Assembly: GCA_963969365.1 (NCBI GenBank)
Contig: OZ017756.1
Span: forward strand, 1,674,001 to 1,738,000
Length of the DNA: 64,000 bases
Direction of reading: 5' to 3'
From: Asterochloris sp. CNOR1
Taxonomy: Eukaryota; Chlorophyta; Trebouxiophyceae; Trebouxiales; Trebouxiaceae
Part shown: one piece after another, positions 1-64,000 of the stretch
How positions within the stretch are numbered: position 1 is the first letter of the stretch
How the letters are laid out: each line of letters starts with the position of its first letter
The notes under the pieces: generated by a model
The model's database searches: none
What the model was told of the DNA's origin: nothing
What the model saw: only the letters and a program-made list of their open reading frames with translations
Translations under genes and position numbers: made by a program

Positions 1-275
1 CAACTCATGGCAGCACATGCCCCAAGGGGGACGGATTGGGAAAAGGTGAAGGAGTTGACGCAGCCTGCTGGTCAGGCACACAGCCGCAGGACTCTGCGTG
101 GTGCCTCACTACCCTTGTTGTGTTGATACACTCCTTTCAGCGCACACAGCTTATCCATGTGCCTGCAGGCTGACGTTACCCCAGCCAAGCCTCAGCACAA
201 GCTGCTCCTGCAGCGAGGCAGCTTTCACTTATTCCAGCTGCCTGCAGCTGCCTGCCAGACAAAAGTGCAACTCAC

Positions 276-3200
276 TCGTCCATGACACCGTCACTGGTCA
301 GCCGCAGCACGATCTCATCCAGTGCAGAGTTGGAAGGGGCGCAAACCAGCACGTGGGTCCTCTCATTGCTCTGGGATCCCACAGGCTGCAGTGGGGCCTG
401 GTCCAGCAGCCCATAGGCGTCCATCCAGGAGGGCTTATCTGTGCCGTGCCAGGGCTTGACCAGGTCCCTGCAGCATGCACAGCTGCATTGGAAAGCTTGT
501 TCACAGCACAGCTGGGCCTAGTCCACAATGCCTGACCACCTCTCAGAAAGAGGCACAGCAAGCATGTCGAGGCAGCAACGCACTACAGGCCTCATAGCAC
601 CAACTTGGCAGTCATACTTTCAGGCAACGGCTAGTGAGACGCACGCCCGCTGGCCAAAGCTACTATCCTCCTAAAGACACAAAGTTCTGCTGGGAAAGCA
701 GCAGGGCTATGCAATGAGCAGCTCGCAGATCAGCAGCAGACCCATCAATCCTCCAGAACACCTGCTCTTCCATAAGCGCTGCAATTAGGGCCTTCTACAA
801 GAAGCATGCAGCCAGAGGCATGCTGGCCCAACTTGGCCCTGTCGCCAATGGTCCAGGGAGATCTGGCCCTCCACAGAGCCTGACGCTCCTTGCTTGCAAA
901 GCATACAGCATGATGCCAAACCAGTGTCTCCTCTTCAACTTGTACATCTGAGGTGTATGCAGGGCTGCTGAAGGCCATGTGGGGGGCCATGGCCTTCTAA
1001 GAGGCGCTTAAGCATTAATGTGCAGTTCCATGCAAGAGCAATATCACTGGGTCCACGGACAGGCAGCCTGCCGTCACCCAAGCCCCTTCTGCAAATGTGC
1101 CAGTGGTCTAGGGGACTGAAAGCTTCTACACACGCTGCAGCTCCTCCTTCCCGCACAGAGCCCCAAGCATGCAGGAGGTGTACCATCCTAAACTATGCAC
1201 TGAAAGGCAACAGAGGTGCAGAGACCCACCTGGGGTTGTCACCAGTGATCCAGGGGGACGCAGCCTTCCACAGGCGCTGCAGCTCTGTCTGCGAGGGTGC
1301 TTGCGTGACAGAGAGCTCTGCAGCGGCCCCATTTTGACCAGACTTTTGACTTGAGGGCTTGGCATACAGGATGAGGCTTAGCAGCGCCAGGATAGTCTTG
1401 GTCTTGCCTGTGCCTGGAGGCCCCTGCAAAGGTGGCACAGGCAGTCTGATATGTTGCTTGTATGCAGATGCAGGTAATGGACAGCAAAGGCTTGGACAGA
1501 CTGGTGAGGCAGCCGGTTTGCCCAGGCGCAGGGCAGTGTGTGTGGACAGCTGAGTACAGGCAACCAGGTGACTCGAGCCTGGTTTGAACTGGGTGCAAAG
1601 CTGTGCTGTAGCACAGCAGATGGCAGAGACTATTTGGGGTAGAAATTCAAGGCAGGCAATGCTTACTTTGTGTGGCAGTGCCAGCATAGGCCAACTTACT
1701 GTGTGCAGACTTGTACAGTGTGACAGCAACCCCACAGACAGCCTGGTGGTAAAGCCTATGTGATCACAATGCTGTGTATGCAAGCAAAAGCTGCAGTGCA
1801 CAAAGCTGGAGGTTTACCTGGATGAGCACAACTGGGGGCCCAGTCATGCCAGCCACGACAGCGGCCACCTGTGACTCGTTGTATTGCTCATGCAGTGATT
1901 TGTGCAGGGCCTGCAGCGCAGAGGGATGCAGCTGGTTCGAGAGCAGCAGCCCAAAGCCCATCAGGGGAGGTGCAAGACATCTCGTTGGGCAGCTGCTGGC
2001 ACAGCATGTCATGCATTGCATGCACTTAGGGTTCCTGAATTGGAGCAGGGAGTCATGCCTTGCCTCCACTGCAGAGCATGTGGTGTGTTTTTACTCCATT
2101 GCATGACAGCAGGGTGCAAAGGGCCCTAGACGCCTGAAGCAACAACACTTGCTGGCTTTGCTTGAACAGTTGGCAAGGTGCATGGTGCAAGCAGACGCAA
2201 AACACTACACGCAGAGAGGTTGCCCTGCAGGCTAGGTATGTCTCGTGAAAGCTGATGGCCTGAGGGCACCATGCACAGACAGTGAGACTGCCTCACAGGC
2301 ATCGTACATCCACTTGCGGGGTTGAAGCCCGCTGTTGGGAGGCACACAGCGTCTCAGATACTGACTCACAGCACATTGTGGGAATCTGCAAGACTGCGTC
2401 CCCCTCTCACAGACAGCCCACCTCAGGGATTTCAGGCTTGCAGGGGGCCAAAGCCACTGCAGAGTGGCCCTTCAGTAGCACGTGAGGGAAGGAAATATGG
2501 CGGACTGAGTGCAGGGCCACCCACTCTCGAGTGATGGTGGACATGTTGCTGAGCTTCTGCACCCACCACTCTCGATTGGGCTGCTTCAGCAGGGCATGGA
2601 TGGCCTGCACCCTGCAGGGCACATGGACTTGGAGCCAAGCTCTTTGCATGTAGTAACTTGGAAAGGGCTGCTTCAGCAGCACGTGTATGGCGTGCCTTCT
2701 AAGGAGCATGAGGAAGCATATAAATCAGTTCTGACGACGAGCATCAGTTGCTGTCATCATGAGGGGCAGCCATGAGGGGGCCCGCATGTCACAGGGCATG
2801 TCCTTTCACAATACGCACGGCAGTCTGCCCCATGCAGCCGACGAAGGCTGCGGCCAGTCAGCGCAAGATGGTCTCCATGTACAGTGATCTATTATGACTT
2901 GATGATACGTGAGCTCAACTATGCTTGGCACACCATCACTCAAGGTAGATCCCAAGGCCAGATCATGAAACTCCTAACCTGCGCCGCGACGGCTCATCGC
3001 TGTACATGCCTGGCTGCAGGAAGAACTTTATCATCAGGCTCTGCGTCCCCTGGTGAGAGTCCACATATCCCAATGCATGCAGCCGTGACTTCTCCTCCCT
3101 CACATCGCCTGGTTCTGATGGTTCCTGCAGCATCAAGCAGCATGATCCATCTGACATGGCAAAAGCCCCTCATCTGTGGTCCGGCAAGAGCCCAGTGCGG

Positions 3201-4698
3201 GCAGCCGGTGAAGGGTATGCATTCTGCCTGAGCCCGGCGCCAGCAGCTGCGACTTTGCCTGGCTCACATTGCCATGATCTCATGGGTTGACAAGGCACCA
3301 GGGGGTCTGGCTCAGGGCTTGTGAAGGGGCTTTCCAGCTCTTCCAAAGCTGAGCAGGCAAGGTGTGCAGGCCCCATGCATTGGTGGCCTGTCTGAAACAC
3401 TCGAGCCAAGAAGTGCACCACTTGACACGTCTCTCCCAGGCAGATACTGTCTTGACAGCGCAGAGAACAAGTTACCTCTGAGACATCTCTTCCAGGGTTC
3501 TGTGTACACAGGAGGACCATATCATTGTCTGAGAACCGGGTTGTGGCGTGGCCATGCATGGTGATCTTGACTTGCAGGAAGTCGCTTTTCTGCATTTCAG
3601 TGGAAGAGCGGCTCATCAGTATAGCTTGGGCTGTTGCTCATGCTGCATGCCAGCAGCTTGACTGCATCCCCCGGGACAGAGCTCGCCCCAGAGGCAGTCC
3701 TTTGCTACAGGCAAAGCCTGACGTCTTGGATATTGAAGCATGCCGCTGCTTGCACAGCTGACTGCTCAAAATGTCAAAGCAGCTGGAGGTGGCATCATGC
3801 CGGCTGCCTGGTTTGAAGTCTGTAACAGGGACAAGAAAAGCACCACCAGCCTCATGATGCTTGAAAGCTGACCTGAGACAGTTCGCTGGAGATGGCATGC
3901 TCGGCTGCTGAGGCAATGCCCTCCTCACTGCCCCTGACCAGCAGTGACCCACACTCCTCCAGCAGCAGCGGCTCGAAAGTATCGACGTAATCCTGCACAC
4001 AATCAGGACTGCAAGCTGAAGTGCAATCATAACAAGACATGACAAGGCCAAGTGCCCTTTTGGCTGGTGCCCACTGCTACTGCTAACAGCCGCTGCGAGC
4101 AACAGACATGCAAGGGCCCCATGGCCTGTTTGGCACAGCAGAGAGGCACACAGCAGACTGCGTGGCAGGCAGGTGTGTGCACTGGCCTTAGATGGAGCCC
4201 ATTGGCAGGAAGCTCCTGTACGCATGGCCCTGTGCAGGCCACAACAGCACTGTGCTTGCACCGAGTCACAGCTTGATGGGCTACAGCCTGCACACTGGAA
4301 GAGACAGCGTGCGCGGGGAGGCATCAGGCCCTTTAGATATGCTACCACCATGCAGGGAGTTCATGCAGGCAAGGGGTCCTGTGCAGGCACCGCTTGTCTG
4401 TCTGCTTCCTGCTTTTGCTGCACAGCCGGGTGTGGCCTGCAGGCTGACCTGCATGTCATTGAACGTGGCCGGCACCGCCTTGAGCTCCTGCTGCAGAGCT
4501 CCCTGCTCATTGGTCAGCCTCTCGTCTAGATCAAAGTAGTCCCAGGCCAGCAGCAACTGCTGCAGCCTGCGCACTGCCAATGAAGAGTAAGCTCAACAGG
4601 AGCCCAGGGCTACCACCTCGCAGTCAAGACGTATGGCAACCCCTCATCAATGGCACCTGTAGACCTGGCACATGTGCTGCCACTTCAGCGAAACGCAT
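276..4698 (-). CDS. MAA3: SEN1/MAA3-type superfamily 1 helicase, N-terminal part (3' end off the window)
   Basis: Putative RNA/DNA helicase of the Senataxin/Sen1/MAGATAMA3 family, which unwinds RNA:DNA hybrids and acts in transcription termination and RNA processing in the nucleus (family knowledge). Exons read on the minus strand: 4665-4698, 4449-4573, 3873-3992, 3476-3589, 2979-3124, 2422-2611, about 2005-1818, 1230-1423, 276-467. Phases join except that the start of exon 7 is uncertain. Visible signatures in order: LLAWDYFDL, DYVDTFEPLLLEE, FSDNDMVLL, HALGYVDSHQGTQSL, ITREWVALHSV, Q-motif YNESQVAAV, Walker A GPPGTGKT, ASPWITGDNPR, and motif Ia VLVCAPSNSALDEIVLRL. The order matches Arabidopsis MAA3. 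The start ATG at 4698 opens a 34-nt exon and is inferred from phase. Motifs II-VI must lie left of position 1; the 275 bases there look intronic. Divergent from the MYB gene. Confidence 0.85.
840..1143 (-). repeat. Two decayed copies of a helicase exon 3' end inside the following intron
   Basis: Segments 1096-1143 and 840-888 align with the real exon end 1237-1285 (encoding LWKAASPWITGD). The nearer copy has acquired a TAG stop. The farther copy keeps an open frame (LWRARSPWTIGD) but has no GT after it. They sit in the intron 468-1229. Confidence 0.75.
2666..2697 (-). repeat. Decayed copy of helicase exon 6 start, in the preceding intron
   Basis: Aligns with 2578-2608 in the real exon (IHALLKQP versus ghost IHVLLKQP). 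The copy lies about 88 bp upstream in the gene's orientation. The phase-matched acceptor is at 2612, so the copy is left in the intron. Confidence 0.6.
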
Positions 4699-5083
4699 GT
4701 GACACACCTCAGGGTGGGGTCTGATGACAACACTGGCTTAGGGATCGCCATAGATCTCCTCCGGGTTAGGCAGTGCTAGTGCTAGATTTGGGATGTTGTC
4801 TGACGGTCGCTTGAACAGCTGTGTATTCAGCTGCGCAGACTGTGATCCATTGCACAGCATGGACATACGGGCACTCCTGAAACCTAAGGAAGGCAAAGGC
4901 GTGGTTAGGTCTTGAATTCTAAAGCACAGTTGTTGAGAACAGGCTGGACAAGGGCAGAGAGTTTTGCTCGGAGGTCCAAGGGGTATTCCGGGAGTGAAGA
5001 CAAGATCCTCAGAAGAGCAACAACGAGACCAGAGTTGCAGTATGACCCTTGCCAGATCGTGCTAGGCCCTCTGGGCAGGCAAG
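4699..5083. promoter_or_regulatory. Divergent spacer between the helicase and MYB genes
   Basis: 385 bases separate the two predicted start codons, so both promoters and 5' UTRs should be here. I see no TATA box or other motif I would defend. A short minus-strand open frame (about 4743-4872) is discussed among the rejected items. Confidence 0.4.
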
Positions 5084-7140: not shown

Positions 7141-7580
7141 CTGCTCCTCACAACCTCATGCGCCTTACTGCGACAAAAGCCTGAGCCAGCACCATACCAT
7201 ACAGATTTTAGGAATCACTGCATGTTGTACAACCCCAGCCTTGCTGTAGATTGTGTGCATGAAATCTGAACTTGGCCTTCCACAATGCCTTGGCAAGCAG
7301 GAGCAGCTTCACTGCCATGCCCTGCAGTGCTGTGTCTTGAACACAAGCATGGTCACCTGCCTTGCCCGTAGCACAGACCACATTGTGTAACACTTTCAGG
7401 TCTCCTCTTCAAATGTTGTGCATGTACAGTTTGGGGCAGGTTCATTTCCTGAAAAAATTTGCAGCATGCGATCTCTGAATATCCCAGTGCGGGACGCAGC
7501 TTCAGTCAGTAAAGAATAGTGCGTCCCAGAAAGCGGGGCATCTGTTCATACAGTGTTGGGGACTAGGCAGATGTCAGTGT
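7141..7580. other. Convergent 3' spacer of the MYB and PRR genes
   Basis: 440 bases with no supported gene. It should contain both 3' UTRs. A TGTAA, the common polyadenylation signal of green algae, occurs on the plus strand at 7386-7390 and could serve the MYB gene. I found no matching signal for the minus-strand gene. Confidence 0.45.
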
Positions 7581-11566: not shown

Positions 11567-14500
11567 TCAAAGGCGAGACAGGAGCTGTGCAATGCAGTCC
11601 TTCAATCCAGGGGAGGTGTTTGGCTCTGTGCAGGCCACAGTGATCTGGAATTGCAGATGCTGCGTTTTCTCCACCTCAATCCGCACCATGCAAGCCACCT
11701 GCACCAGCAGTAGGGGTGTGAGCAGAAAGCACAAGCAACATGATGCACTGCCCCTTGAGGAATTGCTACACAAACTATGTGAGCATGCCTCTGAGTACTC
11801 AGCCCTCCTCTGCCCACCTGTTGGGGCTGCTGCCCCTGCGGCGTGTATGTGAATGTGCCAACGGCCACCAGGTTCTCGGGGTCAGGGTCAATGCTGTTCT
11901 GTACGCCCAGGTTGAGGGAGGCCAACATGGCCTCAATGGGAGGTTTGGCAACAGGTGTGACCCGTGTCACCCGCTCCCCAACCTTGTGTGGGGGACCTGC
12001 ACCGGCAGCAGGCAGGTGCATGGGGGATGACAGGCCTGGCTGCTGGCATCTGCCACAGGCTGTGAGCAAGCAGTAAGGTACTCCAATCAGACAACCTTGC
12101 AGTAAATGAGCGGCAGTGAGAGCCAGCAATAAGCTGTCAGGCCCTGGCAGCGGCCTCACAACACTTGGTCCAGGTACATGCCTGCAAGCTGCACACTGCT
12201 CCAGCAGATGCTGGCCTGCAGGTCACCCAGCCTGCAAAGGTACCCTCAGGGACCTGCAGTGCCCCATGCAGGCATTCTCAGCGCCACATGGAATGACAGC
12301 AAAGCAGTGAAAACACTGACCTGTCAGGCTCCTCCAGCGCCCAAAGAAGACCTCCTTGGGCACAGGGTTGTCTGGTGGCGTGCAGAACTTGGGCACCACC
12401 AGGGGCAGTGTCAGATTCTGGGCCACCGTCTGCCCTGCGCAGCTGTAACTCAGCTGTACTTTTGGAACAGACAGGAAGGCTGACACGCAGGCCACTGACA
12501 GTGGCACCTGCAGGACAGGAGCAGGTTGTTGTCGTTTCAGCCTGTTGCAAGGAAGTCAGTGCAAAGGTGAAACTCTTGTGCAGAGCACTGGTAGCGGAGA
12601 AGTGCAGCCCATGCGACACTTGTGGTATCCACTGAACATGGCCCGAGATGCGCAAGCACATCTGAACCATGGAGATGCAAGCCTGAATGTTTCATGCATG
12701 CCACAATTCCCCTGCATTGTCATGCTGCAATGCCAAACCCAGAGCCTGGCGTCCACCTGCTGCTGGTTGCAAGGGTCTGGCATGCTGCCACTCACCTGGA
12801 TCTGCTTCTTGGCCTCCAGCAGTGGCGGCACCTGCCCCAGCTGGAACAGGAACTGCGGCTGGGGGGGCACCACCAGAATCAGACGCTGCAGAGCGGATGA
12901 GCTCTTGTTGCCCAGAAAGAAGGTCAACTGCCCCTGGCTGCCCTGGAAGCTCATCTTCATCCCCACCTGCAGGGCAGCACAGTGGGCACCATGATTGTGG
13001 CATGCTGTGAGCTCCAGACAGGCGGCATCAGGCCCGCGCGCGGTGCCTGCGGAGCAGAAGCATGCTGTTGAGTGATGACTGCGTGCAGGAGCTGTTTGAT
13101 TCTTGATTGGGTTATGTATGGTTTTATGCTGTGGTGCTGCAGCCATGCTTATTGTGGGACATGTCCAGCAGTGCTGCTGTGCCACTTGCAGCACATGTGC
13201 GCCCTTCTGCAATGCATGTCATGTATTGACAAGGGCTGAGGAACTCAGTCAGCAGATACTCTGCCTGCTCAAGTCTTCACTGCCATCACGACCAGAAAGT
13301 CATGCATCTTTCCATCTTTGGCCTGTGGCCATTTGTGACCAGTCTCGGTGACAGCAGGCCGCCATGCAGCCTCCTGACAAAAGTGGCCTGTGACCTGCGT
13401 GCTGCCATGCAACTGACCGAACTGACCTGCAGGTATTGGTCCTCATACAGAACTCCAGACCCAGCCTGGCACAGCTTGCGGAACCAGTGGTCGATGTCGC
13501 CAGTCGGCCTCACGGTCTCAGGGGAAGCCCCTGACAGCGCGTAGGCATCTCCGCTGCTCGAGAACGGGTCAGCTGCTGCAGATGCAGGGCAATGGAGGGC
13601 GAAGTCAGCATGAGGGCACAGGCCAGGCTGCATGCTGCCCTGCATGCATTTGTCTACCCAAGCCGTCGCTGTGAGTACCACAGCAGAGCAGCAGGGCTCC
13701 TGGATGAGCTTACAAGAGGGGCCTTCTGGATTCAGCTCCCCAGACTGCATCATGTTGTTGCAGCCCTGACGGCCTCGACTGTGTAAAGGGCTGCGTTGTG
13801 CAAAGCGCTCATGCTATGCAAAACAATGCAACAGGGGAAGTGCCTGCAGGTGGCGAACCTTGCTGGGCCGGAGCCGCGGCTGGAGGGGCTGTCTCAGTGC
13901 CATAAAGTTCAGCCAGGGGGTCGATTGGGGCAGCGGCAGCCACTGGCTCGGGCGCTGCTGGTGGGCCTCCGTTTGCCACTGCAGCGCAGCAGTGCCTCTT
14001 GTCAGCGTGGGCATAGGTGATGCTTGGCCTGATGGTGTGCACAACAGCATCAGTGACGAGAGCCGGCACATGGCTTGGGGCAGTACTCCCAGCCTGACTC
14101 CTGTTGAAACACCACTGCATGCTGGATTCATAATCCAGTACACAGCGGTGTTTGACAGGGAACCGCGAGACGCAGCCCTGCATGACATCTACACATCAAA
14201 GCAACTGATGTAAAGCCTGGCAACCCACCTAGCTCCTTGTTCAAACCGATGAAGTCAGCCAGCATCCTGTCGGTGGCAGGCAAGGTCATGCGCCCATGAT
14301 GGCTCAGCAGTGCATGCCAGGCAGCAAGCTCACCAGCCACCTCATCCAAGCTGATGACAGAGCCGCCCCTCTACTGCTTGCCCCCAGATTCAAGAGCAAA
14401 TGGGTGGGTGGAAAAGTGACTGGCTGCTCACCAGGCTCCTCGTCCAGGCCAATGAAGTCAGCTGCTGCCCCATTGCCTGTGGGGGAGGTGGGCTTCATGC

Positions 14501-17500
14501 TTGGGGGGCTCAGCGGCTGGGGGGCCCCTGCCCCGTCTCCCTGCCCGTCTGCATCATCCTGCATCCACACCGGCTTCTGCTGGACCTCCTCCTCTTCACC
14601 CTGCACACAGGCTACCTCAGTCAGAAGAAGGCTGCATGGGGGGAGATGAGCATCTGGAGCACCTCCCGTTCCCTGCCCTGCATCTAGGGCAAGACCACAG
14701 AGGATGTAGATGCTGCCTCAGTCAGGGACCAGCATGCAAGACACACAGGGAGGACCTAATGCTGCCCATCCCATTTCGGCCTGGCAAAGAGGCTACGTCC
14801 ATCACGAATCAGCATGCTGGCCAAGTGAGAGAAGGCTGGGCTTGCAGTCAGCAGCCACACTGGCCCAGTCAACCCAGCTGCAGGGGATCACTCTAGTCTC
14901 AGCTAGGCACCATAGCAGCAGGCCTCGGTGCCTCGCACTGAAGCCGTCACTCATCATCCAGAGATGCATGCAGCAGCAGGACCACATGCCTCTCCCTTCT
15001 GCAGTGACCCATGCTCCATGCGGGCACTCAGCAGCAGGTACCTGCTGCTATGTCATTCCCACAACACCTCATACAGGAGGGCATACCGCAGAGGCTTGCT
15101 TCTCACGTATGACGGTCACACGTCACCCAGGAAAGCATGTGATGGAGGCTTCCTTTTCCCACAAGGTGCCACACATCACCAAGGCAAGTTGCTGGGGGTC
15201 ACCTCCTTCTCAGCCATGCGCCGCAGCAGCAGGCTCCTGCGCTTCTCCCACTTAGGCATGGCGGTCACATTGCGGCGAGCCACGTCAGGATGGGCCAGGA
15301 GGCCTGCGAACTCCACTGCCCGCTGTTGCAGGTCTGCAGACAGCAGCACAGGGGTGCGCTTACTGGCCAGGACAGGCTGATGTGAGGTGACAATCAGGAC
15401 AGGCAACGATCTTAAGATGTGTTTCAGAGCAGAAGACACCAGGAGGGGCCAAAGGCCAGACTCACCACATCAGGTCAAGGGAGTTGGATCTGGGCATGAC
15501 TCGTACTCTTGCATGAGAACAAAATGCAGGCTGTGATGAGTGTCACAGCTAAGGATCCCACCTGCGTCGATGTAGCGAGAGTAGCGGTCAAAGACGTCCC
15601 CAACCAGCTGCTGCAGCTTGGCATTCTCAGGATCTGACAGCAGCATCTTCAGGTAGGCTGACAGCAGCAGCCCCTGCAGATGCAAGAAGTTCTTCGTTCA
15701 TTTGGCAAAGAAGCAGGCATCCTGCGCGTTGCAAGGGCAGCCCCATCAACCCCAGCCGAGAGCATGCCTGTGTAGAGCGCAGGAGGCGGATTCACACAGA
15801 CACCCTTCAAGCTCTCATTTGGTTCCAGCAGGGACGACAGGCAGACACACATGCATGCACAGTACCGCAGTCTTGGGTGCAACTCGGTGCCAGGCAAATC
15901 CCACCTTGGCCTCAGCAGAGACTGCAGGAAAGCGCTCGTGCAGCAGGGTGAACTGCTCCTGGACGGGCAGATCTTTCAGTGACCGCCCATACTCGCCCAA
16001 AATGTAGGCTGCGCAGCAGACCAGGGACTCATGTGCTGCCCCGCGCTGCAGTGCCTCCACAACCTGCAGGGGCAGCATTGAGCCTCTCGGCTCCTGTTTT
16101 TGAGCCTGACCACCGCACAGCCTGGAGGTGTTTGGCCCTGCACACCCTCTGCTGAAGTATGTGGACAGGTGTGCCAGGTACTGCGAGCTCAGGAGCTGAC
16201 AGCTGTGGGTTCTGGCTGCACAGGACATGCACCTCTGACTGCAGTGCACTGTACACTTGCAAACACACCTTCTGGGCAGCGTAGCCATGCAGCTCATCAT
16301 TGTTGGTGATGAGCTGCACGACTGAGTGCCAGATGTCCTTGGTAGCCATGTCGCCAGCCCTCTCAATCAGGGTAAGCATCACATCCACATACCACTCCAG
16401 GCTGGGGAAGAACCTGCAGCAGCCGCGGGACCACTTCATCTGAATGCTGAGGCCACAGGCTTCTCGAGTAATGTGCAAGGAGCCTGCTGCAATGGGGCAG
16501 GGCTGCAGGGCAGCTGTCACCATGCTAGCTGCTGGGCTGGCAGACGCATGGGGGTGCAGGGAGAGAGCCTGCATGAGGGATGCTGACTGCAGTGTGCGCG
16601 CTACCTGTGGCTGGAGTATGTCTGCGTGCTGGGCCTGCACAACCACTGCTGGCCCCTGTTGGCTGAGGCAGGGAGTGCTGTCTGGGAGGCCGTCAGGGAC
16701 AGCAGCCAGAGGCAGTGGCCACCCTCACCGCTCAGCCAACACAGCTGTCTTCAGCACCAGCTCGTCCCTCATGCTGAAGTCAGCCACTGCCAGATACTTG
16801 AGCAGCTCGTCCACAATGTCTGCAGCGTTGTTGGTGTTGCACATGGTGAACAGCAGGTCCAGGCCTCGCCGGCGGATGCTGACGTCTGCATCCCGCAGGC
16901 TGGCCACAATGCTCTTCTGGTGCCTTCAGCAGGTAACCAGCAGCAAGTCAGCAGGAAAGGGCACACATCACAACTCTGGTGCCTGCATGCACAAATCCAC
17001 AAGCCAGAGGGGGCTGACTTCAGGACGCCAGGTGTAGCTCAAGGGCTTACAGCCCAATGAAACAGCTGAAACACAATTTGCTTGCTTGTAGCGCTCCACT
17101 TACATATGCTGCTGGAAGAACCGTTGCATTGCTTGCCAGAGGGCAGTGCCACTTGGCTGTCCCTACTGAAACATGACATGGATATACTCCGTGGTTGTCT
17201 GTGATGTTTGATGGCAGAGCCGGATAAATTTAAGCTGTTGAGGGGAACTGCACCTTCGCTGCTTCACTCACCAGGCTGTGCAATGTCTAGATGGTGAGCC
17301 CCGCAGCAAGCTTGTAGCCCTCAGTCACTCTTGCCGCTGTGAGACAATGGCAGGAACACAACACCATGACAGAATAACACACACTTGTGGTGTGACGCCT
17401 GCAACACCTCTGATAGCCGTTGAACGCTCTCCAGGCTACAGGCAAGCGCTGCGCCCAGCAGGTATCGACTCTGCAAAGCACTCTCTGGTCCTATCTGTCC

Positions 17501-46100: not shown

Positions 46101-49100
46101 TGCTTTCTCTAAGTACAGCATCGCTCCGCTTCGCTTGCATGTTGGACTGGCTTTTTACACTGCACCTGCAGCTGCCTGTCCCCTCTGCTGCAGGCGGCTG
46201 ACTGAAGTGGCAGGAGGGCAGAGCATGGCTCAGCAGGAAGTGCAGCAGCTGCAGCAGCAGCTGGCTGCCCTGCAGCACGCCGTCAGTTCTGCTGACCAGC
46301 TGCAGCAGGACAAGGTCACGCTTCAGGTAAGCTTGCCAGAACACTCCATTGCAGCCATGGAGGCAACCGCGGACCGTCATTTGCTGCCCATGCTGTATCT
46401 GTGGCACCCTTCCAGCGCCTCACCCAGCCCAGCTGCACACGGTCCAGCTGCACATATCAGGCACCCCATAGTCCATCTGCAGAGGTCATGCACCCCATGG
46501 TCCATCTGCACATGTCATGCACGCCATGGTCCAGCTGCACATGTCGTGCACCCCATGGTCCATCTGCATGTGTTATGCACGTCATAGCCGCCTGCAAGCT
46601 GGGACGCTTGCTTCGATGGTGTCTCTGCTCAGGTGCACTGCACAGCCTGCATTCGCCAGCTCGTGGCAGAGTATATTGCCTCCCCTGAATTCCTGGCACG
46701 TGAGGGCTCAAGAGTCTATGGTGAGTGTACCACCTCAGCCACAGCAGCATGGTTGAGCAGTCGACATGCTTCTGTGCTCAGGGGGCCCTGGAGGCAGAGA
46801 AGCAGGCGGGCATCTCCACCCAGGCCGCTCTCAAGGGGGCCCAGTCCTCCACGGCCGCCGCACAGCAGCAGTGTCGTGCAGCTCAGGCGCGGTGCACCCG
46901 TGCGGAGGCCCAGGTGCAGCACCGGGATGCCCAGCTGGAGGAGATGCAGGGGGAGCTGCAGGGCCTGGAGCAGCAGGTGAGACCTGCTGGTTCTACATGA
47001 GGCACACTTGAGGAATGTTTCCAATTGGAACTTCCTTGGCTCGGGGCATTGTTCCCACGTGTGCCCGTCCCAGGGCTTGTGGAGGTAGGGAGATGCGAGA
47101 AGACCTGCAGGGCTTGTTTAGTGCGGAGGAGGGAGCCATGGGCAACCCTGCACCAGGGCCTGTCTGGTGGACCCTCAAGCACCCCTTGGTAGTTTGTTTT
47201 CTGGAGTTCACTAGCAGCTCCTCTTTCCAATGAGGTCCGCCAGGATATGAATTGCTTGCCTGCATGATCTGGCAAAAGTGATGGTCAGCAACAAGCATGG
47301 CGCAGGTCACAGGCCTGTGTGAGAGGCAGGCTGTCATGTACCGAATGCTGCAGGTAGCAGAGCTGCAGCAGAATTACAGCGACTGGCTCAGCCAGCAGGC
47401 AGGGGAGCAGGATGCTGCTCATGAGATGCAGAGGGCCCTGAGAGAGGCGCAGGGAGACAGCCAGACCCTGCGCCACAAGCTCAACGCTGCGCAGCAGCAG
47501 CACTCTCGTGCAGAGGCCAAGTACCACTCCAAGGTGGGGTGGCCTGCACGAGTCACTCTGTCAGGGAGGCTCCATCTGGGTGCCCAATGATTACCTCTGT
47601 CTCTGAATGTATTGCACAGCCGTTTTGCGTGTTGCTGCAGTGCAAAGGAAATCAGCAGAAGCCCGGCAGGGTGGCTGCTGCAGAATGCTATTGCTGAGGG
47701 GAGCCAGCCCTCTGGGGTGCTGCAGGTACTTTGAGGCCTGCCCGCCACTGGTGCTGCAGGTGCAGCAGCCAACCATGAGGCTTGCAGTGCGTGCATGCTG
47801 CCCTGCGCAGCAATCGTGCTACCTTCCTGATTACAGATGCGGAGATTGCTCCACACAAAGTGCTGCTTCCTGGCCTCTGAGGTGCCAGACTGCCCTGACG
47901 CATGGTCCTGCCGCTGCTGCTGCAGGTGCAGCACCTGGAGGACAGGCTGGCAGCAGAGCAGGCCAGCAGCGAGGCGCGTGCCCACGACCACGCTCACCAG
48001 GTCAGCATGCTGCGGCAGCAGCTCCAAGGGCAGCAAGGCCAGCTGGAGCGCCAGGCACGCGAGGTGCAGCAGCTGCAGGCAGCCCTGGCGGCTGCCCAGA
48101 GCGACACGCAGGCTGAGGCGTCCGGCATCACTGCCCGCCTGGCCACTGCTCAGGTGACGCCTGGGGCTGGCACCAGGAGTTCCCTGTCGCCAAGGCAGCT
48201 GCACAGAGTGGGGCCACTGGGCACCAGCGCCTATGTCAGGCCAACGCTCTGATTGGGCCTGCACTGTGTGTGCTCCACTGCCAAGTCCTCACTGGCCCTG
48301 TCGGGCTTACGCACCCGGCACCTGCCCCGTACACGGAGGGCTCCAGAGGCAGCCAGGAGCCGCCTGCAGGCTGCAGGGTGTGTGTTGAGGGGCACTGCAG
48401 CACAGCCACCTGGAGCTCATCAGGTGCAGAGTGCTGCTCACCATGTGTGGGACTCTGATGGCGCCACCGAAGACATGAATCTGCCTGCTGTCAATGGTGA
48501 CGCTTGTCACAGTGCCTGATGCGGTGTCGCGCGAGGAGTGTGGGCGGTGCCGCAGCGCAGGGGTGGCCACCCTTGACATCCAACACCTCACATGCAGTGC
48601 ACGACAGCAGGGCAAGTCCCTCGGCTAACCAAGTATCATCCAGCATCACTTCTTTACTGGCTCTTCAGGCGGCTCTGGAGCAGGCTGAAGGGCAGATCGC
48701 AGCCCTGCAGCAGGACGCCTGGGCAACAACGCAGCAGGCTGCTGCAGATCGGGGCAAGGCAGATGCCGCTGCGGAGCACCTGCGCAGGCGCCTGCAGCAG
48801 GCGGAGCTGCGGGCGCAGCAGGCTCGCGCAGAGGCCCACCACACGGCGCGGGACCAGGTCGGGGCTGAGCTGCAGGCCCTGCAGCAGGAGCTGGGAGCAA
48901 AGCGCCAGGTGGGTGTCACTGCGCAACAGCAAGCGTGCCTGCTGAAGGAGGTCTGCTGGCAGGACTTCTTGCAGCTGAGCTGGGGGGGTCTGAAGTGAGA
49001 GCTGGGATGGGTGTGTCTGGGCAAGAGCAGGGTGGTGTCAGTGTGGGCAGAGGCAGAACAAGGCAAGACAGCTCCCTGGAGGGGTTTTGAGTCTGGCAGC

Positions 49101-55035: not shown

Positions 55036-55072
55036 CGGTAAAGACGAGAGCAGTCACAGCACCTATAGGTAG

Positions 55073-58000
55073 CTACCTGCCCTGGGTCACACCCCTGAAA
55101 ATGCCCATGGCCTGCGCCACCATGGAGGCTGGGTTGCTGGTGTCAGCTGGCAGCAGCAGGGTGGTGCTCTGCTTGGCAACCCCTCTGAAGGCCTCCAGAT
55201 ACTGCTCAGCAATCCGCAGACTGGCTGCCTCACTGCCGCCATTGGCCCTGCAAGTCCAAGCACAAAGATCTGCGTCCAAAAGCTAAGCAGCGGCAGAGAC
55301 AATGAAGTATTGTGACCACACGCTCAATGTGTCAAGACAGCACAGTCGAGTCCAACACAAGTGCAGTGTCTGCAGCATTGCCACCCTGTGCAACACACTC
55401 ACATCAGGGCGGAAGAGGTGACCTCCAGGCTCCTGGCTGTGGCCTGCGCCCGCATGCGTATTGCTTCTGCCTCACCTGCAGCAGCGTTGCTGACCAATGA
55501 TCAGCTTCCAGGGACTGCAGAGACAGAGCAGTCTTGCCTTCTCCATCACAGCCACTGGTCACCATTGATAGCTAGACAACAGCCCAGCTCAGACACAGGC
55601 GCCATCTCTCACATGTCCAGGGGGTTTCCCAGCTGTAACACCACCAACATTCAGCCCCAGCCTGGCACTAGACGGCCTCAGCTTGCCCAAAAGGTAAGGC
55701 GGCATGGACTGAATTACCTTATGTCAGCTTAGCATAGAGCAGAAATTACAGCATGCTTTAGACAGGCAGTGGACGGCACATGACTGCCTTCACCTTTTCG
55801 TCAGCGCAGCCAACACAGAGCACCTAGACCCCAGACATTGCTCAGGGAAGAGCATGGGGTGTCCCCCAACAAACGCAGAGGGCCAGCAAGACGGAGCAGA
55901 CTCACTTGTCCCCTTTTGCAGGCGGAGGGCCAGCACCTGTCAAGAGGTACTGGTGCACCCAGATACAAGTACAGAATGGTTGAAAGTACAGCTTGGTCAG
56001 CAGCACAGTCAGCGTCAAGCATCCCATGATGCAGGCCGAGAGCAGCACCTGTGGCTCTGTTGATGGAGTCCTCCTTGGCAGCCTCTGATCTGAGGATGAC
56101 TTCCGACTTCTCAGCCTCTGCCCTGTTGATGAGGGCCTGCTTGTCCCCCTCAGACTCTAGCACCTGTGCCCTTTTGCGCCGCTCCGCCTCTGCCTTCAGC
56201 GCAGCAGCCAGTCCCCCTCAGGATGGGTGCAGAGGATGCGGCCGAGCATGTGCCACATTGCAAGGCAGCTCTAGTCATGCTGGGCACAGTGCACAATGAA
56301 CCTGTGCCACCATGCTGCTGCAGGCGGTGGTGGCAGCCCCAGCATGCCACCAAATGGCCATTGAGGTATGCAGAGACGATGTCTGCCTGCATCACATGCC
56401 ATGCCAAGAAGCACAACGCACGCTGCTGCCTGTGAGGCCCTGGCTGCCTGGGGGCTAACAGCCTCAGTCAGCAGCCAGGATGACGCAGGCCATATGTCAA
56501 GCCCCGGTGGCGAAGTCTCTGTCTGCATCCCTGTACTGCTTCACGCTGCCAGCAAGTTCATGCTCCAGTGCCCCAATGCATGACGGCCTCCACTGTGGCC
56601 AAACAGGCATAGCCTGGACACGCACAGCGCCTGGGTACCCTACAAGCTGCAGCTCCATGGCCTTGTGCGGGCAACTCAATGCAAGGAGAGGCATCCCTGC
56701 ACCATGTGCCTCACCAGCTGCCCAATGCGTGCAGGCCCAACCTGCAAATTCTTGCTGCTGTGATGCCAGCAGTGCAGTAAAAGTCCCAACCTGCAGTTCC
56801 ATGGCCGCCTTGATCCCTGACGGCACGTTGATGTCCTTGATCTCGTACCGCAGGCACTCCAAGCCCCAGTCAGCCGCTGCCTCTTTGATGTCTTCCCTGA
56901 ACACAAACAGCAAAGGCTACATAGCCTTCTCTTGAGTAACAGGTCAGGTGGATGCTGCTGAGCAAGACATCAGCTGGAGCTTGCTCAGCATCCGCCCTGC
57001 CAGAGCCTGATGACATGTGGCCTCAGCAGAGTGCATCGAACCCCAGCGTGAGCGCCCTGCCAGACCAGCAATGCTACCTATGACTCTGCCACAAGAGAGG
57101 AGCGCGTACACAGGCCCCAACATTTAGGGCCCAAGTTCAAGGCCCGAGACGACCGTTGTCACACACATCAGGTGCTGTCTTGAGACAGGGATTGCAGTCA
57201 CCCACGGACAGTACGCCTGCAGGTGCACCGCACCTGATTTCATGATTCAGAAGCTGCCGCTCCTCAAAGGTCTTGTCGAGCGTGATCTTGCCCAGCTCAC
57301 TGCGCATGGTGGTCTGCGCCAGCTGCACCACCGCATACATGGCATTCTCCACGCCATAGGAGGCCTTCTGCGGATCCACCACCTGCAGGCATGGGTTGCT
57401 GGCTGGCGCTGGCAGCTGCGATGGAGCCTGCATGCCATCCTATATGCCTTCCTATATGTCACCAGGCCATGTGGGGCTTCACCTGCCTGTGCGCACAGCA
57501 CTCATTTAGTGCTGGATTTTTGGCTCATGAGTTTCAGCCAAGACATGCAGTGCAAGATGTCTGGGCGTTCAGCAGAATGCGAGCCTGCACATGCTGCCAT
57601 GCCCCTCAGCCTGCTTGGGTACCACCAGAGTGCAGCTGCTGGCGCGGCACCGGAGTAGAGCTGGCCTTGTGCCGGGGCAGGGTGGTGGCACAAGCTGCTG
57701 TGCAGAGCAGGATGCCGTGAGGCTTGCTGGGAGCTGTATGGGGAGCCTGGCATTGACTGCTGTGGCATGCACCATCTGCATTATGGTCCATGGTGTTTGA
57801 CGCTGCACATGTCCCCAGGGGTCCATCTGGTTGCCCACAGCCCATGGCCAACTGTGTCTGGTCACCTTGACATACAGCACTCCGTCTATCACCAGGGCCA
57901 CATTGTCCCGGGTGACAGCGCCTTGGTTGGGAATCTGGATGGCTACCTCCTTCAAGGAGTGGACATAGGCAATTCGGTCGATCTGCAGGTAAGAGGAGAC

Positions 58001-58533
58001 CTGTGCTGTGCTCTCGCCTCACAGAAGGTGGCGGCTGCAGCTGTAGCAGGCTGCCTGGGGCTGCTGTGCTGCAACCTCAGCTCGGCTGCCAGGCAGGGGT
58101 GACCCTGGACTCACGAAGGGGATCAGGAGGTGAATGCCTGAGCCCAATGTTTTAACATACTTCCCAAAGCGTTCCACAACATAGGCCATCCTCTCTGGCA
58201 CGATTCTGCATGCAACAGGTTGGAAGTCAGGACATTGCTGCAATACCAAGGCAAAATGACAGCTTTCCGGATGACTTACACAATTCCAATGTTGGCAGGC
58301 CTCCCAATTTGCCGGTATATCATCTGATCCTGGTGATTTGGCTGGCTCATGAAGCCTGGCACTTGTGGCGCTGACACCCATGCTGATGTGTGCAGCTGTG
58401 CAGGTGTTACAAGGAGGGTCTGACGCAGAAAGAAACCGGCACAAGGCTGCTGCTCATGCCAACATGCTGTGACGAGGCCAGATTTCGTGCTTGCATTAGC
58501 CAGGCGAGGCAATGCTCTCAGACATCGGTGCAT
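55073..58533 (-). CDS. Mitochondrial stomatin-like protein (SLP2 type, SPFH/band 7), 369 aa
   Basis: SPFH-family scaffold of the mitochondrial inner membrane (family knowledge: binds prohibitins and cardiolipin-rich domains). Eight exons: 58280-58533, 58115-58205, 57866-57982, 57234-57382, 56791-56896, 56049-56193, 55403-55475, 55073-55247; 1,110 nt in frame. The N-terminus [20 protein letters not shown] is Arg-rich and suits a mitochondrial presequence. SPFH domain: [95 protein letters not shown]. Then [20 protein letters not shown], the coiled coil [20 protein letters not shown], and the conserved end IAEQYLEAF ... [20 protein letters not shown]. The usual LN-x-I-V before the coiled coil is replaced by [14 protein letters not shown]. 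Intron 5 ends TGAAG. Size matches human SLP2 (356 aa). Confidence 0.92.
56641..56667 (-). repeat. Ghost copy of stomatin exon 5 end with dead donor
   Basis: Parallels 56788-56813 (AMELQ plus GT). In the copy the base after CAG is C, so the donor is lost. Confidence 0.6.
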
Positions 58534-58635
58534 GGTCCCTGTTCACTTCGACAGCAACACCGTGCTCCCTCAATCTGGCTGTGAGCTGTAGTATTACTTT
58601 CAGATTTGACCAGAAATTGGTTTGACTGTGTCTCA

Positions 58636-61600
58636 TTACTCACACTTGATGGCCTGCAGGGCGGGCAACAGCAGGACCAATCAAGTGTTACGTGTATGCA
58701 GCTATGCGTACTGGACAGAAGCTGGGTACCCACCCGATATATATGTCTCACAAACATGAGCGAGGCGCGCCATCCTACGAAACCAAGCAGCAGGAAGAAT
58801 GCGAAGCACACTGCAGACATTTGAAGGCCTCAGCTGAGCACTAGCAGCGTATGTAAGCAACAGAGGTCCCATGCATTTAGCAGGCACCATCCTTACCAAT
58901 TGCCATGTAGCCGAAGTAGAAGCTACTCTGCAAGGTCCAGTAAGACATAGCTGAGCCACTGACAGTTTGGCCTTTGGCAAGTCGAGCAAGGTCAGCAAGC
59001 CGTACATACCTGCATAAAGCCCGACATGTCGCTACGGGCTGTGAAGTAATAAACTGCGTAAAACATGACAAAGATCCCTGCAGGCAGAGGCAGTGTAGTG
59101 TCTGTCAGCAGCGCCCTCAGGCCCAAACAAGCAAGATGTAGCAGCCCCTCGCTGCACAGCTGCACTCCAGCAAGACAGAACCCACAGGCCGCCAGCCAGG
59201 AGCAGTAAAGCTTGGAACCCCAGCCCTAGCTTCTTTAGCTGCCAGACCCTTGCAGCCAGACGCTTGTAGCTGCCCTGCAGCAAGGCAAACCTGCAGGACT
59301 GCCTGCTGCTCTACCAGCACTGCAGCTGCGATCTTCACACGAAACTAATGCCATTGACAATGAGTGCAAGAGGCCACAGGCTGCCTGCCTCTCAGCTGTG
59401 GAAGCCGCACAAGTGGCCATGCCACCACCAGGCATGGTCTGACTGCCAGTTGGTTCCAGCAGCTGGTCAGGGCATAGTCCTTTTGCGCCATGCTGCTGCT
59501 CTCCCCATTTGCAGCTGCTCTGCAGCGAAACCTACGAGCTGCCTTGCCTGTGCAACCCCTCGCACATCTGCTCGCACTAGGTGCCTCACTTAAAAAAGCT
59601 GCTCACGGTGATCACACCTGTGGACCTGCCGCACAGGAAGCTGCGCCATCATCAACACGCACTGCCAACAGGACGAAGCAGGCTGTCCTGACATGCAGGC
59701 GCCTCCCCTTTCGGCAGCTGTACTCAGTGACAGGAATGATGAGCTGCGCTTCCACCAGGCGTGATGCCCCACAGCCAGCTGGAAGCAGCAGGCTGAGTCC
59801 TGAGTTTCACGGCCCGCTGCTGCCGCCCCTCCCAGCATCTGGCCCCCAATGGCAGATGTGGCAAGCTGCCAAGCCAACTCGGCTGGCTCACCTGTGGACC
59901 CGCCGCACAGGAAGCTGCGCCACCACCAGGCATGGTCCTCCACTGCTAGCTGGAAGTAGGTCAGCGCAATGGTGATGAAGGCAGTCACAATGTTCAGGAT
60001 GATGAACACAATGAACAGTATGGTCCAGATGGTGTAGATTTTGTGGCCCCACACGCTGGCAAAGATGTAGTACAGCTCGATGTAGATGGCTGAGAAGGGG
60101 AGGAAGCCTACAGGGCAACATCAAAGCACAGATGTCTTTAGTGGCTGCTACAGCAAAGCCCTGAAGCAACATGAATTCCAGATTGATGTGGATGGCTGAG
60201 ATGGGCAGGGAACGGCAGCGGGACAAAGCCAAAGGCAGCAGGGCTTAGGTAGCGCAGTACACTCTGACCCTGGTGGTCAACTTCTGAGTATCAGCAACAC
60301 ATCCCAAGCCGCCAATGTCAAAGGCACCACGCCAGGCGATGTTGAGACGAACAAAACTTACTTTTCACGAAATCTGGTTCACAATTCAAAGCAGCCATGG
60401 TAAACAGTTTGTGCCTAAGAGCAACTGCTGCAATGCCGCACCCAGCCATGCTCACTTGGGACAATATCCTGCAATGCGGGGGCAGCTGGGGACATTGTGA
60501 ATCGCTGTTCATCGCTCCAGCAGTGATCAGCAGCAGCAGATGCACACCCTCACCAGCCATGATCATCTGGGGAACAGCCCTCCTGTACCAAGGCAGCTGG
60601 GGGATCTCACGTGGGTACTTGTTGGTCCGGCAGGGCGCATAGAACTGCGACCTGCACCCAGCTGCACACGGTGTAGTGCTTGCCTGCCAGAGAGGCGAAG
60701 CCCAGTTGTGAGCTGCACCCATCTGCTTGTGCCACTGCTCGGCCTGTGAGTCCCGGCTTGAGCGCGGTATGGACACAGTGCCCTGCAAACTTGCAGCCCA
60801 GGAAGGGTTGCCATCTCACCTGTTGTTCTTGCCAACAATGCCTCCGAAGATGCACAGCGGGATAGTGACCAGAGCCCACAGCACCAGAATAACCACGATT
60901 GTGCCAAAGGGCAGCGCTGCGGTGGTCTGCAGAAATCCAGCTGAGCAGTCAGAGTGCCATCAGGAGTAGAAGTCTTGAGGCACGCAGATCTTGCCAGGCC
61001 ATGCAGAGAGCAGCTCTGGTGCATGCTGCAATCAGACTGGACCCTACAATTGGTCATGCCAGACCTCTGACCTGGCATACAAGCCTGCTGAAAGCACCAC
61101 TGCAGCTTGAGCAGCCCCAAATGAGGTTAACCATGTCACTTGGGATGCTGCAGCTTGAGCCGCAATGTATAAGACCATATGCAGCTTAGGATGTACGCTG
61201 CAGCTGTATGTGCACAGCCAAGCAAAAACACATGATCAGCTCCTCACTCTGTAGATCCAGGCGACGGTGTTGTTGAAGCAGAACATCAGGAAGAGGGGCC
61301 CACAAAAGACCACACAGGTCAGCAGGATGTTGCGCACCCAGTCCTGCCCCTCCCTGGATCATGCGACACTTGGCGTCAGTGAGGGCTTGTCGCTGGCACC
61401 TGAGTGATACGCATAGTTGAGTGCCATTGCATGCTGCGTTCATGGATGCAAGATGCATGCTGACCTTCAGCAAGTCTCACCCTTCCATGAGTCAGGCACA
61501 GGCAATAATTGTGGACTTTTGAGTGCTTGCTGTTGCATGCAAACTATTTCCATGCTTGACGGAAGCGAAGCGCAGCGCAGCAGGCATTGTCGCTGCGCTG

Positions 61601-63771
61601 CGTCTCAGGGCAGTCGCTGCAGTAGAGAAAAGCTGCAGAGGCAGATGGGGCAAGTGACAGACCAGGTCTCATCCGGTCTTTCCAGAGCATGGACGCACGC
61701 TGTGGAACAGACGAGGCACAACACTACGCTCATGTGGCAGACAACCATTACTCACATCTGGCGGTAATAGGAGGCAGCCATGTAGCCGCTGATGCTGGCG
61801 GTCAGTGCGTACAGCACAATAAGGGCCGTGAATAGCCCTCCTCGGTTGTAGGGGTAGAAACTGCCCAGGCAGGCCAGCGTGAAGATGAAGAGGGCCAGCG
61901 TGAACAGCTGCAGCGTCAGAGAGCAGACATCAAGAGGCATGACGCACCTGCTGCCGAGGCAAGTCAGGGTGAAGGTAGGATAAAGAGTACGTGGCACAGC
62001 ATGAGCAGCTGCAGCGATCAGTAAGGAACTAGGTTCAAGGCAAAGGCCAGCAGAACAGCTGCCATGAACTCAACAGCAAATGTGGGCTCCAGGCACCGAA
62101 ACCAGTCACCAGCATGCAGTTCAGGCATAGGGGGACTGCCACAAGTTGCAGGCAGCAAAATTCCTACCTGAGCACCACTGCCCACAAAGGCACAGAACAG
62201 ATTTTTGTGGGGCGGGAACCTGAAGACATCCCCATGGATGTACTTCCACCCGGTCTCATCACTGTCATCCATCACTACAGCAGAGGCAGCGTCAAGTAAG
62301 GCACTGCACAGCTGCGCCATGTCTCTGCAGCACAGTCCGATGCATTGCCTCTGCCAGCAAGCTAATGGTGCAGACTCCAGTGACTTGTGTGGGGTGCCAA
62401 GCTGCAGGGCAGCCTTCCGATTGCCTGTGTACTGTTGCAGGCCATGTTCCTGCTGCTGCTGCTGATGGCAGGTACGCTTGCTGGCCTGCTGATGCTGTCA
62501 CAGGAGCCATCAGACAAGCCAACAGAGGACACCCACCTTCATCATCTCTGGTGTATTTGACAAAGTCATTCTTGAGCACACGCATGAGGATGGTGGCCAG
62601 GAACCCCGTGAGCAGCAGCACTGTGACACAGGAGTTGATGATGCTGAACCAATGGATCTGCAGGGCACAGATCCTTATGTGTCCAAACAGTCAGGTACAG
62701 GCTGCACATTGCACAACATACACGGGCAACGTGCACCATGCTGTCACACTGGCGACTGCTGTGGTGGGCACCTGACTGCCCAGCACGCATAGGTCTCACT
62801 ACTTCAGATTGCAGCCAGGCGGGGGCATCCTTGGGCAGATTGAGCAGGGCTTGGCCTCATGCTGTGTCAATGGAACAGGACGAACTCAGAGACCCACAAC
62901 CCACTTTCAGGTGTTGGCAGGATCCAGACACCCTGCCAGCCAAGAGAAGGCAGTGTCCTGCAGTCCTCTCCGCATCTCTGAGGGAAGATCCAAGCTGTCA
63001 AGCCTCACCTCCAGGTGCTGGGGCAGAAACTGGTAGCGCCTGTACTTGTCCATGCGCTTGTCAAAGGTGACTTCTGTCTCCTTCCACTTGACTGAATAGG
63101 TGAAGTCCACGGGGACTGTTGCGCCCTCGTCCTGGCCCACCACCTGCCATGCGTGCATGAGGGCTGCTAAGTTGGAGGCATGCTACAATGCAGTCCCTGC
63201 ACTACCAAACAGTTTCAGGGGACCAGTGGCGCTCTTATCCTGGGGCCCCCTACCAACATGTGGGCTGTTGAGCTTTGAGAAGCCGTGCCCCTGCAGTTGT
63301 GGGTCTCAAGTGGGGGGCCAGCTACCTGCCACACTGCCACACTCAGGACAGACAGCTCGCCGTGCACAGCTCAGTGGCAAGTGGTGAGGGATGTGCAGGG
63401 CTCAGCAAGCATGACTGGCAGAGGCATGACATGGCAGAGGTGCACAGTCTGGCTGGCTCTTGCTATTGATAGCCCACACCAAGCCAAGTCTGCTTGCAGC
63501 AAGATCTCCCCTTCTACAGTACCTGCGCAGGATCTTTGCAGACGCAGCCCTCAGCAGCAAATCCAGCCTCAGAGCAGCTTATTGAAGGGTTGAAAGAACT
63601 CACCGAGGGTGATATGTCCACCACCTGTGCAGGGTCTGTTGAGACTGCCAGCTCGATGATGTAGTTGCCATTGTAGGAGACCTCGAAGTGGACGTGCGTG
63701 AAAATGAAGTACTTGAGCTCGTTCCCTGAGGCCTTGAGTAGCTTCTCCGGCTTACCAATGAACCCCCAGAT
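58636..63771 (-). CDS. Transmembrane 9 superfamily (EMP70/TM9SF2-4 type), C-terminal 467 aa; 5' end off the window
   Basis: Nine-span endosome/Golgi protein (family knowledge). Thirteen visible exons, phases consistent: 63604-63771, 63009-63143, 62537-62657, 62168-62274, 61756-61907, 61248-61353, 60820-60926, 60554-60651, 59892-60107, 59010-59077, 58897-58927, 58734-58810, 58636-58653. Lumenal part: [49 protein letters not shown]. The membrane part begins [18 protein letters not shown] and contains [142 protein letters not shown]. The C-terminus FVRHIYRAIKCE ends in the K-x-D/E sorting motif that binds COPI in plant EMPs. The last exon has only six codons including the stop. The lumenal N-terminus and signal peptide lie beyond 64000; 63772-64000 appears intronic. 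Confidence 0.95.
59393..59787 (-). repeat. Two further copies of the [15 protein letters not shown] exon end
   Basis: The real exon end is 59886-59956. 59615-59648 matches 59889-59922 at 33 of 34 positions, donor included. 59739-59787 matches the part coding for [10 protein letters not shown]. 59393-59460 is a third, more diverged copy of the whole stretch without a GT donor. All lie in intron 59078-59891. Confidence 0.9.
60180..60223 (-). repeat. Ghost copy of the start of TM9SF exon 59892-60107
   Basis: Encodes P-I-S-A-I-H-I-N-L, paralleling P-F-S-A-I-Y-I-E-L at 60070-60107. It sits about 107 bp upstream of the real exon in the gene's orientation. Confidence 0.75.
60440..60497 (-). repeat. 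Ghost copy of TM9SF exon 60554-60651 end and donor
   Basis: Shares CCCCAGCTGCC and the ATGGCTGG-GTG donor block with the real exon end (about 60548-60610), with many substitutions between. Confidence 0.7.
61947..62016 (-). repeat. Ghost copy of TM9SF exon 61756-61907 start with acceptor
   Basis: CTGCAGCTG, then codons giving FTLTCLGS, parallels the real CTGCAG/CTGTTCACG start with FTLACLGS. Distance is about 100 bp. Confidence 0.75.
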
Positions 63772-64000
63772 CTGCGGGCAGGCACACTGACAGCATTCCA
63801 ATGTGATTTCAGTGGAGACTCAGCAGGGCCAGTGGATGAGACCTTCGCCAGTCCCCAATACCTTCGCCCGGGATGCGCGCACTTCTGCAGTAGGTGCAGA
63901 TGTAGCAAACCAAGCACTGCAGACCAGTACGCACGACAGCAGGGTGCTGTGAGGTCGCTTTGGCGCTGCATGCACTGATTTGTAACACAGACAGGCAAGT

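Follow-up and report, generated by a model that had tools for sequence, protein, structure and literature searches.

Many introns of this genome hold decayed copies of their own exon edges, splice site included, and they do so genome-wide. Alignment of 60 exon and 15 intron bases at each junction to the remainder of the same intron revealed a copy (score of at least 70) at 13.2% of donors and 10.7% of acceptors among 410 introns, compared with 0.2-0.7% in controls. The reading we favour, at a probability of roughly 85%, is that short tandem duplications recur along genes; an event that spans a splice junction makes the intron longer and remains recognisable through conservation of the exon copy.

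Our sample consisted of a window of 64 kb (the whole stretch of DNA analysed, G000:C11:1674001-1738000), four 50-kb blocks (C1, C2, C4 and C6) and a held-out 50-kb block from C8; the source genome, eukaryotic judging from introns and genes, comprises 56.4 Mb in 21 contigs. Gene models were obtained with our own unsupervised hidden-Markov gene finder, which was seeded with peptides of the window, trained on the window and the four blocks, and run with the GC-donor prior fixed at 3% and a raised intron cost. It recovers conserved exons known to us; its models carry no transcript check, and neighbouring genes get fused. Predicted introns have a median length of 284 bp and a mean of 327 bp, and predicted exons a median of 132 bp. 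According to PMC6652019, the 56-Mb genome of Asterochloris glomerata has a GC content of 56-62% over 98% of its length; each gene has 9 introns, with a gene length of 4240 bp and an mRNA length of 1400 bp. By our arithmetic these figures imply about 315 bp per intron, compared with the predicted mean of 327 bp here. Across all blocks, the gene models show a very strong acceptor consensus, CTGCAG/G, a donor consensus of CAG/GTGAG and about 5% GC donors. We left 49 predicted introns of a coiled-coil protein gene out of the counts, as the coding sequence is repetitive and confounds the copies. Introns shorter than 100 bp were dropped, as were those longer than 1500 bp (main junction test) or 2000 bp (a test with longer queries), and 410 of 517 introns were kept after filtering.

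The preliminary description of the window had asserted the presence of such copies, on both the acceptor and the donor side, and both assertions hold in the window, the blocks and the held-out C8 sequence. The comparison it had proposed, each intron against shuffled or randomly paired ones, gave control values far below the direct ones: for the 410 introns of the window and four blocks, the frequencies at donors and acceptors were 0.5 and 0.5% with the reverse complement, 0.2 and 0.2% with the shuffled intron, and 0.7 and 0.2% with other introns. Using the preceding and following introns of the same gene as targets gave 0-1.1%. The C8 block, which was absent from training, has a copy at 10 of 89 donors and 10 of 89 acceptors; its controls gave 0/267 donors and 1/267 acceptors with other introns and 0/89 with the reverse complement. 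At a score of at least 65, 94 of the 410 introns contain one or more direct copies and 9 of 410 a reverse-complement match. With longer queries and a score of 78, 50 donors and 36 acceptors passed, against 3 and 3 in the reverse complement. The junction itself is spanned by 43 of these 50 donor copies and 29 of the 36 acceptor copies; the others are 13 exon-only copies, at most 18 bp from the junction, and 1 intronic copy. In the C8 block, 14 of 15 copies at this score cross the junction.

We also counted ungapped repeats at distances of 40-400 bp without recourse to annotation. The controls were inverted repeats over the same distances, direct repeats 1000-1360 bp apart and sequence shuffled locally by dinucleotide. 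Direct repeats were far above all three in the window (1-34 kb and 51.5-64 kb) and in the four other 50-kb blocks. At a score of at least 70, the 1-34 kb part of the window, into which the coiled-coil gene extends with its first 6 kb, has 27 direct, 1.6 shuffled, 0 inverted and 0 long-distance repeats. The corresponding numbers for block C6 are 96, 3.2, 12 and 4, and inverted repeats in this block are not wholly at background.

In the window, 37 copies with a score of at least 68 are found in 26 of the 115 introns of at least 100 bp (reverse complement, 3/115 introns; introns from elsewhere, 1/115). The coiled-coil gene supplies 18 of the 37 copies and 14 of the 26 copy-bearing introns; without it, there are 19 copies in 12 of 73 introns, and each control gives 1/73. 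A Pfam scan of ten single exons yielded five that pass the cut-offs: EMP70 in two TM9SF exons (PF02990, E = 1.6e-28 for the exon of donor 59889-59928; E = 1.3e-9 for the exon at 61861-61919), 2Fe-2S (SDHB), MYB and HAD hydrolase. Adaptin_N, response regulator and AAA_11 fell below the cut-off, the first of these in the AP-2 alpha exon at 17723-17820 with E = 1.5e-8 and a score of 34.1 against a curated cut-off of 37. One exon of the HAD gene had no Pfam match, and the coiled-coil exon had sub-threshold matches only; the HAD domain is located in an exon other than that of 26815-26844. The names AP-2 alpha, SLP2 and helicase presume in part our own reading of the predicted proteins, which for SLP2 is the whole basis of the name. 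The copies in the window, with identical over aligned positions where given, are as follows.

59889-59928, minus strand: end of a TM9SF (EMP70) exon and its donor, source (junction scan; Pfam EMP70)
59615-59654, minus strand: decayed intronic copy of the TM9SF donor edge 59889-59928, 37/40
59742-59788, minus strand: second copy of this donor edge (exon part 59913-59959), 38/47
59391-59453, minus strand: third copy of this donor edge (source 59887-59953), 51/63
60062-60103, minus strand: start of a TM9SF exon (acceptor side), source (junction scan)
60168-60209, minus strand: copy of the TM9SF exon start 60062-60103, in the upstream intron, 33/42
61861-61919, minus strand: TM9SF acceptor and exon start, source (junction scan; Pfam EMP70)
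61951-62021, minus strand: intronic copy of the TM9SF acceptor edge 61861-61919, 52/59 aligned positions
26815-26844, minus strand: end of a HAD-type phosphatase exon and its GC donor, source (junction scan)
26607-26636, minus strand: copy of the HAD GC donor edge 26815-26844, 29/30, both ends of the similarity abrupt
17723-17820, minus strand: end of an AP-2 alpha adaptin exon and its donor, source (junction scan; Adaptin_N below cut-off)
17507-17603, minus strand: copy of the AP-2 alpha donor edge 17723-17820, 69/96
17649-17716, minus strand: second copy of that AP-2 alpha edge (source 17748-17816), 51/68
14217-14259, minus strand: copy of the AP-2 alpha donor edge 14420-14462, 33/43
14328-14357, minus strand: second copy of the AP-2 alpha donor edge at 14420-14462 (source 14426-14455), 24/30
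14876-14944, minus strand: copy of the AP-2 alpha donor edge 15187-15257, 49/69
813-888, minus strand: copy of the helicase donor edge 1211-1285, 53/74
1100-1143, minus strand: copy of the exon part of the helicase edge 1211-1285 (source 1242-1285), 33/44
2665-2695, minus strand: copy of the helicase exon start 2578-2608, 26/31
3243-3285, minus strand: copy of the helicase exon start 3079-3121, 32/43
55917-55940, minus strand: marginal copy of the SLP2 donor edge 56030-56052, 21/23
32316-32395, plus strand: copy of the coiled-coil gene acceptor edge 32425-32499, 61/75, with a second copy at 32214-32277; this gene is outside the statistics

Copies at a score of at least 68 thus occur in six genes of the window (helicase, AP-2 alpha, HAD, coiled-coil, SLP2 and TM9SF), of which SLP2 is marginal and the coiled-coil gene confounded, and the earlier figure of at least seven genes in ten could not be reproduced at this score. 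The MYB, response-regulator and SDHB genes of the window have no copies at this score. The coiled-coil gene (predicted at 28.1-53.1 kb) has a long exon with about six diverged 159-bp coding repeats (37306-39342, 37531-38536), and its predicted intron 46327-46781 contains a minisatellite at 46441-46580 with a 29-bp unit in 4.8 copies. The density of copies is not special to this locus: the window has them in 12 of 73 introns, and the blocks in 6/93 to 35/79. The share of introns with junction copies is uneven among blocks, ranging from 6% (C2) to 44% (C6), and the difference is far beyond chance (chi-square p = 3.5e-8).

The similarity between source and copy typically takes in some 60 bp on the exon side of the junction and 10-30 bp on the intron side. 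Copies lie 55-591 bp from their source, a wider range than the 90-260 bp first described, and the nearest copies have a mode of 70-110 bp. Gaps between successive copies are 55-163 bp in 45 of 54 cases. The clearest array (L015:2690-3090) is located within a 989-bp intron; read by eye, it comprises a donor-crossing unit repeated five times head to tail. Repeats begin at 2690, 2772 and 2859, and donor-like motifs lie at 2767, 2854 and 2942, giving units of 82, 87 and 88 bp. Decay is heavy in the final two copies, and Tandem Repeats Finder reports 2.4 copies for the array. Elsewhere, age mostly prevents head-to-tail contiguity from being seen directly, and many older copies at longer spacings retain similarity only in part. 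Over 264 kb, coiled-coil gene included, the same program finds 29 arrays with a period of at least 20, two of them at a match of at least 95%. The copies had been described as progressively diverged, but arrays show no gradient of divergence: the exon-proximal copy is the better one in 17 cases and the worse one in 19.

We propose the following mechanism. Short tandem duplications of about 100 bp would keep arising along genes, probably by slippage or unequal exchange. Where the duplicated segment crosses a splice junction, two junctions would stand in a row, and continued splicing at the outer one (first donor or last acceptor) would leave the protein unchanged and the intron longer by one unit. 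The inner copy, freed from constraint, would then decay while the source stays readable as coding sequence, and repeated events would build arrays of two to five copies. The junction presumably used by the cell was assigned from the coding frame and the gene finder. The idea that only one copy keeps the phase joining the flanking exons survives in part: the spacing is divisible by three in 25 of 86 copies, so that frame is not always decisive. A single tandem unit of more than 140 bp should leave a longer similarity, yet at such distances the match still extends no further than some 60 bp into the exon and 10-20 bp into the intron; we therefore infer that long-spaced copies are remnants of multi-step arrays. 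Where junction and copy are 70 bp or more apart (47 gaps), an intermediate copy at a score of 60 is present in 43%, compared with 1.3% in controls; the 57% of gaps that have none at this score count against multi-step arrays.

Introns with copies are longer, with a mean of 495 bp as against 329 bp for introns without. To give every junction an equal search space, we used a fixed 160-bp target adjoining it. The proportion of junctions with a copy was then 6/162 (3.7%) for introns of 185-260 bp, 11/156 for 260-350 bp, 35/182 for 350-500 bp and 37/176 (21%) for those above 500 bp. Donor-crossing and intron-only duplications were also simulated, under substitution and indel rates that we assumed, in introns no longer than 600 bp and free of copies. 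In the simulation, intron-only duplicates are lost to detection sooner: 71% of donor-crossing and 45% of intron-only events are detected at a divergence of 0.22, and 56% and 9% at 0.26. Uniform placement predicts about 54 intron-internal duplications from the divergences of 67 copies, or 69 if scaled to 86. We observed 53 intron-intron pairs in 41 of the 410 introns, and 22 of those introns also hold a junction copy. Some of the pairs may be copy against copy; if all 22 are, junctions would be favoured about threefold, and if none, hardly at all. With 53 pairs seen and about 54-69 predicted, we rejected the need to assume that junctions are strongly preferred; in this model little or no preference is needed to explain the copies. 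An estimate from the 67 copies suggests about 140 junction-crossing events among 820 junctions within the detectable age. Of the view that tandem duplication across junctions is a route of intron lengthening, junction-crossing duplication, the decay of one copy and the longer introns stand, but the junction need not be a strongly preferred site.

A TM9SF paralog on C3 (L002) is 82% identical over 227 bp. The two paralogs share both affected intron positions, which means that no intron was gained there, and copies occur at the same two junctions in each, L002 being counted without a separate control. At paralog-diagnostic sites, seven copies side with their own gene in 51 instances and with the other gene in 21 (p = 0.0005), although the sites of any one copy depend on each other and the margin is narrow for two copies (6:4 and 8:6). 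The copy at 59615-59654 matches its own exon at 6 such sites and the paralog at 1. Judged from these sites, most of the copies seem to post-date the gene duplication, and the copies probably arose independently in the two paralogs. An intron of the TM9SF paralog also contains, on the reverse complement of L002, a perfect inverted repeat with 29-bp arms (995-1023, 1026-1054) that could form a hairpin. A protein search of the same genome found four further, more distant EMP70-like places (L032-L035). One TM9SF exon was searched against other genome and viral contigs, and no matching relative was found.

The preferred reading thus draws on the copying itself, its direct orientation, the spanning of junctions, non-coding decay, the association with long introns, one contiguous array and recurrence in a paralog. 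Counting against it are two sharp-edged blocks, the short similarity of copies beyond 140 bp, the rarity of copies below 5% divergence, the lack of a divergence gradient along arrays, the inverted repeats of C6, two weak paralog tests and the dependence of all gene models on our own gene finder. The blocks, two of the best-preserved copies, are near-identical to their sources over 29/30 positions at 208 bp and 37/40 at 274 bp, and their sharp ends suggest later gene conversion or occasional short templated copying. They would be better explained than by tandem duplication if break repair or replication-fork switching had pasted 30-80 bp of exon edge, non-tandemly, 100-300 bp away, a process that would also fit a length of similarity that is flat with distance. 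As a general explanation, such pasting is unlikely: inverted copies are rare, a contiguous array exists and intermediate copies are common, and pasting could draw on any part of the exon, whereas most copies take in the junction. Errors of gene prediction, or spurious matches from coding sequence that is repetitive or of low complexity, might be suspected in a GC-rich genome with an internally repetitive coiled-coil gene; with that gene excluded, unrelated introns, shuffles and reverse complements at 0.2-0.7%, a domain-confirmed TM9SF gene and annotation-free counts that agree, we regard this as next to negligible.

The inner copies could instead function as exons, either alternative or mutually exclusive, or be maintained as decoy splice sites. 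Their splice signals lend this some colour: 18 of 44 copied donors and 17 of 29 copied acceptors still outscore the lowest-scoring tenth of real sites, compared with 0.9% of random intron positions, and the splice dinucleotides are kept in 48 of 68 copies, compared with 62% for other dinucleotides. The decay of the copies makes it very improbable. Over all copies pooled, 51 of 58 indels are not a multiple of three, 15 stops occur among 938 copied codons, and mismatches between source and copy are spread over codon positions 1, 2 and 3 at 19.3%, 18.2% and 27.4%; the open reading frame is not kept, and the pattern is that expected for a free copy beside a constrained exon. Spacing in multiples of three in a minority of copies also speaks against exon function, and we rejected functional second exons as the explanation. 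Decoy sites persist, with no evident selection for or against them. Divergence is below 5% in only 2 of 67 copies, and the scarcity of young copies has one of three causes: a process that has slowed, quick loss of fresh identical copies, or collapse in the assembly.

Introner elements are a dispersed family, and the introns concerned share internal sequence. The copies described here match their own exon edge and rarely other introns (0.2-0.7%), and two array-bearing stretches match only themselves genome-wide; a mobile element was rejected as their source. A closer likeness is the potato RdRp gene, where a tandem duplication runs across the boundary of an intron and an exon and both copies have the acceptor side (Ma, Lan and Niu 2016, PMC4974935); an 83-bp tandem duplication within an intron is also mentioned there. 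In potato one event created a new intron and a new piece of exon, whereas the events here number in the scores, make existing introns longer and leave the inner copy to decay. Gene segments duplicated in tandem also alter exon-intron structure in the model of Rogers (1989), where a tandem-duplicated exonic AGGT gives rise to a new intron, and in the internal gene duplications of Gao and Lynch 2009, both as described in PMC4974935. Unlike in the Rogers model, the unit here holds an existing junction and the intron merely lengthens. Relatives of Chlamydomonas have median introns of 198-343 bp without a peak at 60-110 bp, a range that includes our predicted median of 284 bp, and the accessible text of Craig et al. 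2021 (PMC8226300) gives the advantage of long introns as unknown and leaves the mechanism behind their length open. Our results go beyond this in offering a mutational route, in what is presumably a different green-algal lineage. A literature search, with most subscription journals outside its reach, found no account of genome-wide intron lengthening by junction-crossing duplication. Such duplication is known from single cases; its scale and its link to intron length are new here.

How introns lengthen in compact genomes is an open question, for which we propose this mutational route. A constrained exon beside an unconstrained intronic copy gives oriented duplications that can be dated in a single genome, so that the growth and decay of introns and the competition among splice sites can be measured with no need of an outgroup. 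Of the inner sites that could be placed, about half (35/73) outscore the lowest-scoring tenth of real sites and may constitute a standing source of alternative donors and acceptors. More tentatively, it is possible, though we would not count on it, that a flux of tandem duplications of about 100 bp is the main determinant of intron length in this lineage, much of the intron DNA being decayed duplicates of the intron's edges and interior; the edge copies would then serve as a within-genome clock, and the clock would read a largely stopped pulse or a strong loss of fresh copies.
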